From positions 1-18,129 of the forward strand of contig VBGE01000009.1 in the NCBI GenBank assembly GCA_005880345.1: a stretch of DNA of 18,129 nucleotides, given 5' to 3'. Origin of the DNA: Chloroflexota bacterium (GTDB lineage: Bacteria > Chloroflexota > Dormibacteria > Dormibacterales > Dormibacteraceae). Under the pieces are notes generated by a model, which ran no database searches, was not told the DNA's origin, and saw nothing but the letters and a program-made list of their open reading frames with translations. Both the position numbers and the translations under genes were made by a program. Below, in pieces: positions 1,117-4,544 of the stretch. Within the stretch, counting starts at the first letter, position 1. Every line of letters starts with the position of its first letter.

Positions 1117-2898
1117 ATGGCCGGATACGGCGACCACGAGGTCAGCGACGATCCCCTCCAGATCCTGCGGCACTCGACCGCGCATCTGCTCGCGGCCGCC
1201 GTCACCGAGCTCTACCCCGGCGTGAAGTACGCGATCGGCCCGGCGATCAAAGAGCCGCCAGGCTTCTACTACGACTTCGACTTCGGCAAACAGGTGTCGG
1301 ACGCGGAGCTGCCGGCCATCGAGTCACGCATGCGGCGGCTGGCGAACGCAGACATTCCTTACGTTCATGAGGTTCTGCCGCGCGAGCAGGCCATCGAGGA
1401 GTTTCGCAAGCGCGGGCAGGACTACAAGCTCGAGCTGATCGCGGACAAGGTCTCCGGGGATGGCGTCAGCGTCTACCGCACGGGCGATTTTCTGGACCTG
1501 TGCCTTGGCCCGCACGTCAGGTCGACCCGAGACATCAAGGCTTTCAAGCTGCAGCGGATCTCGGGTGCCTACTGGCGCGGCGACGAGAAGCGCCCGCAGC
1601 TGACCCGCATCTACGGCACCGCGTGGCAGACGCAGCGCGAGCTCGACGACTACCTGAAGTTCCTCGAGGAGGCCGAGAAGCGAGACCACAAAAAGCTCGG
1701 CAAAGATCTGAAGCTCTTCACGGTCGACGACCGCGTCGGGCCGGGCCTGCCCCTGTGGCTGCCGGATGGCGCGACCATCCGCCGAGAGCTGGAGCGATTC
1801 ATCGTCGACGAGGAGCTGATGCGCGGGTACCTGCATGTGCGCACGCCGGATGTCGCGCGGCTCGACCTGTACCGCCAGAGCGGGCACGCCCAGCTCTATG
1901 CGGAGTACATGTATCCGCCGATGCGGTTTGAGGACGGCGAGGAGCTCGAGCTCCGGCCCGTCAACTGCCCACACCACATCGTCGTGTATCAGACCGAGCT
2001 GCGCAGCTACCGCGACCTGCCGCTGCGCATCGCGGAGATCGGCAATAACTGGCGCTACGAGCGCTCGGGCACCCTGGCCGGAATGAATCGGGTCCGAGCA
2101 TTTGCCCTCAACGACGCGCATATCTTCTGCACGCCCGAGCAGCTGATGGACGAGGTCAAGGGCGCCATTGACCTCGCGCTGTACTTCTCGAAGGTGCTCG
2201 GCATCGACGAATTTTCCTACCGCCTCTCGACGCGGGACGACGTCAAGGACAAGTGGCTCGGCACCGAGGAGCAGTGGGAGGAGGCGCAGGCGGCGTTGGC
2301 CGAAGCCCTCGAGTCGATGGGGCAGACGTACGAGGTGGGGAAGGGAGAGGCGGCCTTCTACGGTCCGAAGATCGATTTCCAGGTGCGCGACGCGCATCGC
2401 CGGGAGTTCACGAACTCCACGGTGCAGGTGGATTTCCAGCTGCCCCAGCGGTTCGAGCTCGAGTACGTGGCCGAGGATGGGGCACGCAAGCGTCCTGTGA
2501 TGGTGCATCGCGGGGCAGCCGGGTCGATGGAGCGGCTGTTCAGCTACCTCATCGAGCGCTACGCCGGCGCTTTCCCCACGTGGCTGCATCCGACGCAGGT
2601 CGTCGTCACGCCGATCGCCGACGCGCACAACGAATACGCGCAGGAGGTGGCTGCTCGCCTGCGTGCGTCACGGGTCCGGGTCGAGGTCGACCGCCGCTCG
2701 GAGCGCCTTGACCGCAAGATCCGTGACGCGAAGCTCAAAAAGGTGCCGTATGTCGCAGTCGTGGGCGGCAAAGAGGTGGAGTCCGGGCACGTCAACGCCC
2801 AGAACCGCGCGGGGGAGAAAGTCGACATGGCCCTCGAGTCCTTCGTCGAGATGCTCACCGCGGAGATCGCCGAGCGGCGCCGGCCGCCTCAGCGCTAG
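1117..2898 (+). CDS. thrS: Threonyl-tRNA synthetase lacking the TGS domain
   Basis: This class II synthetase charges tRNA-Thr in the cytoplasm. The protein has 593 residues against about 640 in E. coli and begins directly in the second N-terminal (editing) domain, so the ubiquitin-like TGS domain is absent. The editing site is intact: HSTAH at 19-23 and Cys129/His133 in DLCLGPHV match the HxxxH and CxxxH sets that remove mischarged Ser-tRNA. The catalytic zinc ligands are present as Cys284 (RPVNCPHH), His335 (DAHIFC) and His464 (MVHRG). The C-terminal anticodon-binding domain begins near HPTQVVVTPI. ATG 1117 has no clear ribosome-binding site, and no frame upstream could encode a TGS domain before the divergent DedA gene. 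It lies 45 bp before the small exported protein. The function is essentially certain. Confidence 0.97.
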   Translation: MAGYGDHEVSDDPLQILRHSTAHLLAAAVTELYPGVKYAIGPAIKEPPGFYYDFDFGKQVSDAELPAIESRMRRLANADIPYVHEVLPREQAIEEFRKRGQDYKLELIADKVSGDGVSVYRTGDFLDLCLGPHVRSTRDIKAFKLQRISGAYWRGDEKRPQLTRIYGTAWQTQRELDDYLKFLEEAEKRDHKKLGKDLKLFTVDDRVGPGLPLWLPDGATIRRELERFIVDEELMRGYLHVRTPDVARLDLYRQSGHAQLYAEYMYPPMRFEDGEELELRPVNCPHHIVVYQTELRSYRDLPLRIAEIGNNWRYERSGTLAGMNRVRAFALNDAHIFCTPEQLMDEVKGAIDLALYFSKVLGIDEFSYRLSTRDDVKDKWLGTEEQWEEAQAALAEALESMGQTYEVGKGEAAFYGPKIDFQVRDAHRREFTNSTVQVDFQLPQRFELEYVAEDGARKRPVMVHRGAAGSMERLFSYLIERYAGAFPTWLHPTQVVVTPIADAHNEYAQEVAARLRASRVRVEVDRRSERLDRKIRDAKLKKVPYVAVVGGKEVESGHVNAQNRAGEKVDMALESFVEMLTAEIAERRRPPQR

Positions 2899-2943
2899 GC
2901 TGGGATACGCGGGGCGTTTCTTCAGGCTGTGCAGGAGGTGTTG

Positions 2944-3222
2944 ATGAAGAACGGACGGTTCCTTGTCGCTGCCATCGGATCGATCACTGCGGTGATGCTC
3001 AGCGCGGCACCCGCGCTGGCGGACGACACCGGCTATCACGCCAACCCGAACGCGAGCGTCGACGGCCAGTGTCACGGCGCATTCGGCGCGTTTTCGCACA
3101 ACTTTCAGTTCTCCCCCGGCTTCCAGCCGCCGACTGACGCACACGCCGACAAGGCGGCCGGCGTGAATGGAGACGGCAACCTCTTCAACCCGAACGCCGA
3201 GAAGATAGGAAGCTGCGGCTGA
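2944..3222 (+). CDS. Small exported protein of unknown function
   Basis: I do not recognise the family. The product has 92 residues and starts with a textbook Sec signal peptide: a basic N-terminus (MKNGR), a hydrophobic core and an AlaLeuAla signal-peptidase site at about residues 24-26, followed by Asp-Asp. The mature part, about 66 residues, is hydrophilic and rich in Asn, Gly, His, Phe and Pro. It has two cysteines, one early (GQCHG) and one almost at the end (SCG), which could form a disulfide outside the cell. ATG 2944 is preferred because AGGAGG (2933-2938) lies 5 bases upstream; GTG 2929 and TTG 2941 in the same frame are less well placed. It sits between thrS and the infC leader, with no contextual clue to its role. 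It may be co-transcribed with thrS. Confidence 0.75.
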   Translation: MKNGRFLVAAIGSITAVMLSAAPALADDTGYHANPNASVDGQCHGAFGAFSHNFQFSPGFQPPTDAHADKAAGVNGDGNLFNPNAEKIGSCG

Positions 3223-3231
3223 GGTCGCGCA

Positions 3232-3258
3232 CGGGCCGCCGCCGCCCCGCGCGGCCCG
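3232..3258 (+). other. Strong GC hairpin after the small exported-protein gene
   Basis: CGGGCCGC (3232-3239) pairs perfectly with GCGGCCCG (3251-3258) around an 11-base loop, starting 9 bases after the stop codon. There is no T-tract after it, so it is not a canonical intrinsic terminator. It could stabilise the 3' end of the transcript or mark a factor-dependent end. Between here and the infC leader only a weak -10-like TACCAT (3302-3307) was seen, without a matching -35. Confidence 0.4.
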
Positions 3259-3319
3259 GGCTTCCTCAGCTGTCGAGGTGCACGCCGGGTTACGTTTCCG
3301 GTACCATCCACGCTCTGAA

Positions 3320-3448
3320 GAAGGGCGCCGCCCTCACCCCAAGGGTTCTGCCCAAAAGGGTTCTCGAAGCGGACGGCCCTTGCTGTCCGTTTTGTTTTAT
3401 GTAGGTGGAGGAATAGAGCAACCCTGAATTTGGCCGAGGTAGCGTCCC
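3320..3448 (+). promoter_or_regulatory. infC leader, probable attenuation region
   Basis: This non-coding stretch holds several mutually exclusive pairings ahead of infC. AAGGGTTCT occurs twice, at 3341-3349 and 3356-3364. AAGGG in each copy, and AAGGGC at 3321-3326, can pair with CCCTT at 3377-3381, inside the terminator hairpin at 3370-3389, so forming either one would compete with the terminator. Downstream come a strong GGAGG at 3407-3411 with no good start codon after it, and GAGGT at 3436-3440, which suits AUA 3449. In B. subtilis the infC-rpmI-rplT operon is controlled by an L20-binding leader with a terminator. The same type of control here is inferred from position and architecture only; I cannot see a clear L20-binding consensus. 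Confidence 0.5.
3370..3398 (+). terminator. Intrinsic terminator in the infC leader
   Basis: CGGACGGC (3370-3377) pairs with GCTGTCCG (3382-3389), with one G-U pair and a CCTT loop, followed by TTTTGTTTT (3390-3398). It is the only textbook Rho-independent terminator I found in the window. It lies 51 bases upstream of the proposed infC start and 147 bases after the preceding gene. Either it ends the thrS transcript or, more likely given the competing repeats upstream, it acts as an attenuator for infC-rpmI-rplT. Confidence 0.75.
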
Positions 3449-3997
3449 ATACCGTTTAAAGAGCTAAGGATCAACGATCAGATCCGGAGCTCCGAAGTGC
3501 GTCTGATCGATGACCAGAACAACCAGCTCGGCGTCCTTTCGCTCGACGCCGCGCTGCGCATTGCAAACGAGAAAGGGCTCGACCTCGTCGAGGTGGCGCC
3601 GCAAGCCAGCCCGCCGGTCTGCCGCCTGATTGACTACGGACGCTACAAGTTCGAGACGGTCAAGAAGGAGAAAGACCAGCGGCGCAAGCAGAACGTCACC
3701 AAGCTGAAGGAGATGAAGCTGCGGCCGAAGGTCGCCGAGCACGATTTCCAGACCAAGTTCAAGGGTTTGCGACAGTTCCTCGAAGCAGGAGAGAAGGTCA
3801 AGGTGACGATCATGTTCAGGGGCCGCGAGATGGTCCACCAGGATATCGGCAGGCGGATCCTCGATCGCGTCGCGGACGACGCCAAGCCGTTCGCGGTCGT
3901 CGAGCGCCAGCCGCTGCTCGAGGGCAGAAACCTCTTCATGATCCTCGCGCCCACACGCCAGGCGGCCGCGAAGGAGGCCCAACCGACCAGTGCCTAA
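3449..3997 (+). CDS. infC: Translation initiation factor IF-3, probable AUA start
   Basis: IF3 binds the 30S subunit, prevents premature 50S joining and rejects wrong initiator codons. The N-domain (EVRLIDDQNNQLGVLSLDAA, then LDLVEVAPQASPPVCRLIDYG), a lysine-rich linker and the C-domain (FRGREMVHQDIGRRILDRV to LAPTRQ) are all present. The first ordinary start is GTG 3497, but the conserved stretch LRINDQIRSSE continues upstream in frame, until a TAG at 3440-3442. The only candidate starts there are AUA 3449 and AUC 3470 or 3482. AUA 3449 has GAGGT (3436-3440) 8 bases upstream and gives 182 residues, the normal length. infC is known for AUU, AUC or AUA starts, which let IF3 repress its own synthesis. 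GTG 3497 also has a GGAG upstream, so an internal start is possible. The end overlaps rpmI by 8 bp. Confidence 0.93.
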   Translation: MPFKELRINDQIRSSEVRLIDDQNNQLGVLSLDAALRIANEKGLDLVEVAPQASPPVCRLIDYGRYKFETVKKEKDQRRKQNVTKLKEMKLRPKVAEHDFQTKFKGLRQFLEAGEKVKVTIMFRGREMVHQDIGRRILDRVADDAKPFAVVERQPLLEGRNLFMILAPTRQAAAKEAQPTSA

Positions 3998-4184
3998 GTT
4001 GAAGACGCGGAAAGGCATCTCGAAGCGCGTGCGGGTGACCCGCAACGGCAAGCTCGTGCGTCGCAACTCGTGGACCAGCCACCGCCTCCACCAGAAGTCG
4101 AAGACGCACAAGCGCAAGGATCACACCGAGCAGCCGGTCTCCAAGGCCGACCGCAAGACCGTGAGACGGGCGCTCGGGGTTTAA
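3990..4184 (+). CDS. rpmI: Ribosomal protein L35
   Basis: This encodes the 64-residue, very basic large-subunit protein L35. The sequence follows the family pattern: PKLKTRKGISKRVRVTRNGK, then the RRNSWTSHRLHQKS segment, and RKDHTEQPVSKADRKTVRRAL at the end, including the usual Ser/His-rich middle. The GTG start at 3990 gives the invariant N-terminal Pro-Lys-Leu-Lys-Thr and overlaps the end of infC by 8 bp, so translational coupling to IF3 is likely. AAGGAGG at 3971-3977 lies 12 bases upstream, slightly far. The infC-rpmI-rplT order is one of the most conserved ribosomal operons. Confidence 0.97.
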   Translation: MPKLKTRKGISKRVRVTRNGKLVRRNSWTSHRLHQKSKTHKRKDHTEQPVSKADRKTVRRALGV

Positions 4185-4190
4185 CGAGAG

Positions 4191-4544
4191 ATGGCTCGAG
4201 TCAAGCGCGGCGTACCGGCGCATCGCCGCCACAAGTCGATCCTCGACCGCGCCAAGGGCTTCCGGCTTTCCAAGAAGCTCCTGTTCCGGCCGGCCAACGA
4301 GGCCGTCCTGCACGCGCTCGCTTACGCGTTTCGCGACCGCCGTCGTCGCAAGCGCGAGATGCGCAGGTTGTGGATCGCCCGGATCAACGCCGCTTCGAGG
4401 CAGTCGGGGCTGCCCTACAACAAGCTGATGCACGGCCTTCGCCAGGCCGGTGTGGAGATCGACCGCAAGATGCTGGCTGACCTGGCCGTGCGCGACAGCG
4501 GTTCCTTTGCCCGGCTGGTGGAGGTTGCAAAGAAAGCTCTCTAG
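4191..4544 (+). CDS. rplT: Ribosomal protein L20
   Basis: L20 binds 23S rRNA early in 50S assembly; in several bacteria it also represses its own operon by binding the leader mRNA. The 117-residue product is full length. It has the basic N-terminal arm ([22 protein letters not shown]), the [21 protein letters not shown] helix and the C-terminal globular part with [27 protein letters not shown]. It begins 6 bases after rpmI, with a weak CGAGAG site directly before ATG. A 78-bp gap containing a structured palindromic element separates its stop from the ATG chosen for trmH. Confidence 0.98.

Follow-up and report, generated by a model that had tools for sequence, protein, structure and literature searches.

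The infC gene of the window, the whole stretch of 18,129 nucleotides that was analysed, is very probably translated from an AUA codon at position 3449, through which IF3 would exert feedback on its own synthesis. The start position and the codon are strongly supported by comparison with related genes; weak initiation at this codon is what we infer by analogy with known infC genes, and feedback by IF3 on the window gene is likely on the same grounds. For an uncultured phylum, these results would correct where the IF3 protein begins, and they provide a comparative test of IF3 feedback in that the start codon shifts between lineages and stays among the codons that are expected to be sensitive to IF3.

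Relatives were searched for in 41 genomes (38 with a match) and then in 110 genomes of the class (104 with a match). The class is taken as Dormibacterota from the named relatives, which are 'Candidatus Dormiibacterota' and 'Chloroflexi bacterium' MAGs. One infC gene per genome was read, giving 100 genes in four families, f1 (n=38), f2 (n=27), f3 (n=17) and f4 (n=18). Partial or split matches (G021, G038, G050 and G053) were left unread and the divergent L101 was set aside. The latter is a second infC (G073:C178:385-1785) in one f4 assembly with 54% identity to that of the window, and it is either a paralogue or contamination.

The start site in the window

The features of the start site and of the operon are as follows.

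3436 to 3440, plus strand: Shine-Dalgarno-like GAGGT, 8 nt (3441-3448) from the ATA, seen in the sequence; GAGGT stands at 8 nt in 33 of 38 f1 genes
3440 to 3442, plus strand: in-frame stop TAG that shuts the infC frame upstream, seen in the sequence
3449 to 3451, plus strand: proposed start codon ATA (AUA); of the 100 class genes read, 83 have AUA, AUC or AUU here and the other 17 ACG
3449 to 3997, plus strand: infC, coding for IF3, 182 codons plus stop; NCBIfam infC at 218 bits, Pfam IF3_N and IF3_C
3497 to 3499, plus strand: GTG, the first canonical in-frame codon, read as residue Val17 and not as the start; GTC or GTT in 17 of 17 f3 genes
3990 to 4184, plus strand: rpmI (L35), GTG start, 8-nt overlap with the end of infC, seen in the sequence
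4191 to 4544, plus strand: rplT (L20), ATG start, from the ORF list

The gene order around the start site is thrS, a small ORF, infC, rpmI and rplT, as taken from the sequence and the ORF list, and the ORFs 3990..4184 and 4191..4544 are presumably rpmI and rplT, judged by the sequences of L35 and L20. The matches to NCBIfam infC, Pfam IF3_N and Pfam IF3_C all identify the gene as encoding IF3, and it is the one infC match in this assembly (1.95 Mb, 63% complete, 411 contigs). The small ORF, which lies between thrS and the infC leader at 2929-3222, codes for 97 amino acids with a signal-peptide-like start and gave no Pfam or NCBIfam match. A scan of 2880-3600 for sigma-70-type promoters found none.

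The infC frame reads TAG(3440) CGT CCC ATA(3449) CCG TTT AAA GAG CTA AGG ATC(3470) AAC GAT CAG ATC CGG AGC TCC GAA GTG(3497). There is no ATG, GTG or TTG in this frame from the TAG at 3440-3442 up to GTG 3497, and the stretch between them codes for conserved IF3 residues. The earlier note had claimed, from the sequence alone, that the conserved N-terminus of IF3 is encoded upstream of GTG 3497 and in frame with it. The profiles bear this out because the NCBIfam infC score is 218 bits from 3449 and 200.5 bits from 3497 (cut-off 60), and Pfam IF3_N is covered over profile positions 1-70 from 3449 but only over 11-70 from 3497. Its placing of GAGGT 8 bases before AUA 3449 is also confirmed, with 3441-3448 in between. 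With the Met removed, the N-terminal peptide of the window IF3 is predicted to be PFKELRINDQIR, and that of the f3 form AFRELRINDQIR. ATA is rare in the window, accounting for 5 of the 247 Ile codons in 12 CDS. The predicted RNA structure of 3395-3500 is no more stable than that of shuffled sequences (z -1.21) and therefore adds nothing to the case for the start. One further point of the note, that B. subtilis IF3 has 13 residues up to the conserved IleArg, the same number as from AUA 3449, could not be confirmed. Residue 2 of the solved chain 5me0_Y aligns with residue 4 of the window protein and the Bacillus locus L171 has two consecutive ATT codons in its start region, so the residue count is no test of the start.

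Codon 1 and the first codons across the class

Among the 100 class genes, codon 1, aligned with ATA 3449, is AUA in 36, AUC in 45, AUU in 2 and ACG in 17, and AUG, GUG or UUG was found there in none of the genes read. By family it is ATA in 17, ATC in 20 and ATT in 1 of the f1 genes, ATC in 25, ATT in 1 and ATA in 1 of the f2 genes, ATA in all 18 f4 genes and ACG in all 17 f3 genes. In the genus of the window it is ATA in 14 and ATT in 1 of the 15 genes read, two more genomes of the genus having no match. Thus, the comparison of upstream regions that the earlier note had proposed gives an AUN codon in 83 and ACG in 17 of the 100 genes, and its placing of the start at AUA 3449 and not at GTG 3497 is upheld because relatives keep a non-canonical codon at exactly that position. 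In 100 of 100 genes codon 1 is preceded at 7-10 nt by an SD-like motif, weak motifs such as AAGG being counted as well, and the second codon specifies P, S or A in 99 of them. An in-frame canonical codon lies further upstream in 10 of the 100 genes, all of them f2 or f4, and in none of the 55 genes of f1 and f3. Within the bodies of infC, ATA makes up only 6 of 372 Ile codons in the 38 f1 genes and 4 of 172 in f4. Since it is about 2% of Ile codons and yet occupies codon 1 in 17 of 38 f1 and 18 of 18 f4 genes, its share there is not a matter of codon usage (binomial tails of 4e-20 and 4e-30, which ignore shared descent).

If IF3 began at GTG 3497, it would be made without its first 16 residues and the homology upstream would be untranslated. 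In favor of this start, GTG 3497 is the first canonical codon in the frame, GGAG sits 7 nt before it in the window, and codon 17 is GTG in 35 of 38 f1 genes. However, the variants in codons 2-16 are 23 synonymous and 18 nonsynonymous in frame in the 38 f1 genes compared to 5/38 and 1/40 in the shifted frames, and the corresponding values are 19/4 compared to 1/22 and 1/21 in the 17 f3 genes and 30/32 compared to 10/58 and 3/64 in the 45 f2 and f4 genes. This in-frame synonymous bias shows that the stretch is translated in these lineages. A lack of conservation between 3449 and 3497, which the earlier note had named as an outcome against its claim, is thus not what was found. Moreover, all 17 f3 genes carry GTC or GTT at codon 17, and the GGAG of the window is at the same place in only 3 of 38 f1 genes (L001, L002 and L032), with some SD-like tetramer within 16 nt before codon 17 in 10 of 38. 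A start at GTG 3497 was therefore rejected as extremely improbable. No more credible is a start at AUC 3470, residue 8. This codon is of the same class as AUA and is ATC in 36 of 38 f1 genes, but 17 of 27 f2 genes have GTC, GTT or ACG at codon 8, and 2 of 38 f1 genes and 1 of 18 f4 genes have GTC there, while codons 2-7 are conserved as protein, and this candidate was also rejected. AUA 3449 is, therefore, the start that we adopt.

The other genes of the operon served as controls. Starts of rpmI, found by a motif rule, are ATG, GTG or TTG in 49 of 49 located (50 tried), and those of rplT are ATG or GTG in 42 of 43, the remaining one reading NTG. Thus, within the operon only infC avoids canonical starts. 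The 8-nt overlap of the rpmI GTG start with the infC stop (3990-3997 in the window) was found in 28 of 30 located f1 genes; the overlap is 23 nt in 11 of 12 f2 and f4 genes, and there is a gap of about 10 nt in 6 of 7 f3 genes. It is possible that the overlap serves translational coupling. Among database proteins with a readable N-terminus, for which only the protein records were used, Met is exactly at residue 1 in 10 of 68. The IF3 records P0001, P0003, P0010 and P0031 are stored with truncated N-termini, which fits the use of gene callers that take no start other than ATG, GTG and TTG; P0001, of the f3 family, begins at residue 27.

Probable ACG, GUC and GUA starts

The f3 genes (L022-L028 and L042-L051) come from four genera, and in all 17 the ACG is preceded by AAGGAGG or AGGAGGT 7-8 nt upstream. 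The invariance of ACG is by itself modest evidence because 23 of the 149 codons after it are also invariant in f3; codons 2, 4, 6, 7 and 8 show synonymous variation only. An in-frame TGA lies two codons before ACG in 17 of 17 genes, and this leaves TCC or TCA and the ACG as the sole codons before the conserved residues. The same arrangement is present in VBEN01000049.1 (L115), which may duplicate a genome already counted. A database protein similar to those of f3, P0004, reads ...REITGFRELRIN with Ile directly before Thr, and therefore the start in that lineage could be AUN or ACN.

Explanations for the use of ACG were looked for in the f3 genomes. An altered initiator tRNA was rejected because a BLAST search with a Dormibacterota initiator tRNA (E 0.001) found one initiator tRNA with a CAT anticodon in each of 18 of 18 genomes. 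Of the other 16 tRNA matches, the 12 that were read are tRNA-Asn (11) and a tRNA-Thr with anticodon TGT (1), and the other 4 are weak. A stricter tRNA pattern matched in 0 of 17 f3 genomes, the T-arm of f3 not fitting the pattern. A hairpin UGAUCC:GGAUCA around the ACG was also rejected because no more than 11 of the 17 genes contain the GGATCA partner. The spacer before ACG reads TGATC in 17 of 17 and TGATCC in 16 of 17 genes, and TGATCC is complementary to GGATCA of the 16S tail, which 2 of the 11 f3 genomes searched yielded. With the hairpin partner in only 11 of 17 genes, complementarity to the 16S tail is the better idea, and perhaps pairing of the spacer UGAUCC with this tail aids the ACG start. 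Upstream short ORFs that might couple to the ACG were inspected by eye and none looked conserved.

Of the best 80 named-genome loci of a longer list, 70 lie outside Dormibacterota. A rough rule was applied to them, in which a candidate start is an in-frame codon that follows an SD-like motif at 3-11 nt. By this rule 53 of these 70 offer only AUN or CUG, 6 offer both kinds, 6 offer canonical codons only (TTG in four of these, which are spirochaete records), 4 offer neither and 1 is too near a contig end. AUA candidates among the 70 are in records of several phyla. The AUA of the window is thus an ordinary member of a widespread kind. In the named set, GTC is at the start position in L160, L174, L189 and L152. 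The Actinomycetota-labelled class of L189 was examined in 27 genomes, of which 25 had a match and 24 (L230-L253) were readable. Codon 1 is GTC in 20, GTA in 3, ATG in 1 and GTG in none, and of the 21 genes in which a script took the distance, 20 have a GAGG that ends 9 nt upstream.

Three clades thus use different codons and avoid AUG, GUG and UUG, save for one species with AUG. Since the codon differs by lineage and the canonical ones are avoided, it is apparently the property of being rejected by IF3 that is kept, and not any one codon. We consider it probable, going by these alignments, that the infC start is selected for rejection by IF3 whatever its letters, drifting among AUN codons, becoming ACG with a second-base mismatch to the CAU initiator tRNA in one Dormibacterota family, and becoming GUC or GUA without GUG in an Actinomycetota class. 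The ACG and the GUC/GUA clades appear to be the surprising part of the result, and a search limited to open-licence papers found no bacterial infC with an ACG or GUC start. These lineages would be natural cases for measuring how much the start of an essential gene may depart from AUG, and if this is true, family-wide ACG and GUC/GUA starts widen the range of working start codons.

Proposed IF3 feedback and the leader of infC

In E. coli, IF3 makes initiation complexes less stable unless their codon is AUG, GUG or UUG. Three residues of E. coli IF3 that are important for discrimination, R25, Q33 and R66, correspond in the alignment to R18, Q26 and R59 in the window protein. The E. coli infC gene reportedly has an AUU start and is under autocontrol by IF3, in work by Butler et al. 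of 1986 and 1987. The window gene is the same gene with the same logic, a codon that IF3 rejects, the codon being AUU there and AUA here; feedback has been shown for E. coli infC and is likely for that of the window. AUA 3449 would be read as fMet by the CAU initiator tRNA, helped by the GAGGT 8 nt upstream, and AUA in the P site would be destabilised by IF3. As AUA is such a codon, enough free IF3 would lower initiation on its own mRNA, and this negative feedback would set the level of IF3. The avoidance of AUG, GUG and UUG fits this mechanism.

In a survey of codon-anticodon pairs (PMC10158994), IF3 is reported to accept nothing but Watson-Crick pairs at the first two bases and to shut out weak pairs at the third base; the system was reconstituted with engineered tRNAs, and by itself it leaves the function of GUG and UUG unexplained. 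The closest parallel is S. aureus infC, where Ribo-Ret density is reported at an AUA start and the authors suggest autoregulation (PMC13009471). The gene, the AUA codon and the presence of an upstream SD are the same, but the S. aureus start comes from ribosome profiling and that of the window from comparison only, and the S. aureus site is said to have an extended SD (PMC13009471) whereas the window has only GAGGT. A non-canonical and probably self-limiting infC start is thus of a known kind to which the window adds a case.

The second candidate for control is the RNA upstream of the start site, for which two features are proposed.

3304 to 3393, plus strand: structured infC leader, L20-leader-like; stems P1 and P2, an inner hairpin and the terminator are mutually consistent (covariance model R1, covariation)
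3365 to 3394, plus strand: intrinsic-terminator-like hairpin followed by TTTTATG, proposed attenuator (pattern scan, covariation across families)

The 82 genes of f1, f2 and f3 yielded 63 distinct leaders, 18 genes being without the anchor TCACC (many of these, mainly f2, read CCACC) and one being a duplicate. Of the 63, 41 were aligned and 22 were left out as redundant or because of long insertions or a misplaced anchor. The consensus of the 41 has 17 pairs, 12 of them changed on both sides. Paired cells are 97.6% compared to 84.6% in shuffles and 41.8-53.1% in slid versions, and the covariation score is 0.542 compared to 0.276, with 0 of 500 shuffles reaching the former; the count of pair types stands out less, since it is equalled in 19 of 500 shuffles. 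The terminator pattern found once in 2880-3600, where shuffles have a mean of 0.6, is weak alone. The match of R1 in the window (73 bits, E 2e-20) is to a model to which the window contributed. R1, which was built from this alignment, was run on 71 sources, consisting of 67 of the best 80 named-genome loci, 3 f4 loci and the window, and it matched 7 of 7 Dormibacterota sources outside f4 and 0 of 5 in f4. Among 59 other sources it matched upstream of infC in 13 at E 0.01 and in 8 at 0.001, the weakest matches being untrustworthy because two on the minus strand reach 0.01. Of 16 such loci, 15 are matched by the Rfam L20_leader, and 6 of these matches exceed the gathering score. Both models match in 14 loci, and in 12 of them RF00558 starts exactly 8 nt after R1 (L124 and L150 differ); L186 has RF00558 only and L132 has R1 only.

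The window leader shares with the RF00558 L20 leader of Bacillus and others its place before infC, the AAGnAG-stem-CUCACC core and the 3' terminator. It differs in that the window gave no Rfam match, the gathering score of RF00558 not being reached, and that 12 loci of the class gave no RF00558 match even at E 5, with only six sub-threshold matches to unrelated Rfam families. We read the window leader as a diverged L20 leader that the Rfam model misses here. The leader precedes infC-rpmI-rplT and ends in a terminator. It is likely that 3304-3393 is a transcription attenuator of the L20-leader type and a second layer of control.

This raises the question whether the attenuator alone regulates infC, the AUA start at 3449 keeping IF3 low with no feedback. 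A covarying attenuator leader is present in f1, f2 and f3, and weak starts cut the yield by themselves; S. aureus reporters with AUA or AUU give about 10% of AUG, a share that rises to as much as 30% in rich medium for one gene (PMC13009471). On the other hand, f4 keeps AUA in 18 of 18 genes though 0 of 5 f4 loci match the leader model, and codon 1 drifts among AUA, AUC, AUU and ACG without becoming UUG or GUG, which are weak but canonical, in any of the 100 genes, as sensitivity to IF3 would predict. Regulation by the leader alone is therefore unlikely, and feedback by IF3 through AUA 3449 is the explanation we favor.

Three further observations concern this region. In f3 the U-tract ends shortly before the SD, which places the terminator within the infC leader, where it would act as an attenuator. 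Between the terminator and the SD, the window (3398-3440) and L002-L019 share a stretch GGAGGAATAG..CAACMCTGAATTTG that is strongly conserved within f1. Downstream of the infC region of two other genomes, T-box leaders were seen at L124:2916-3165 and L150:2880-3133.
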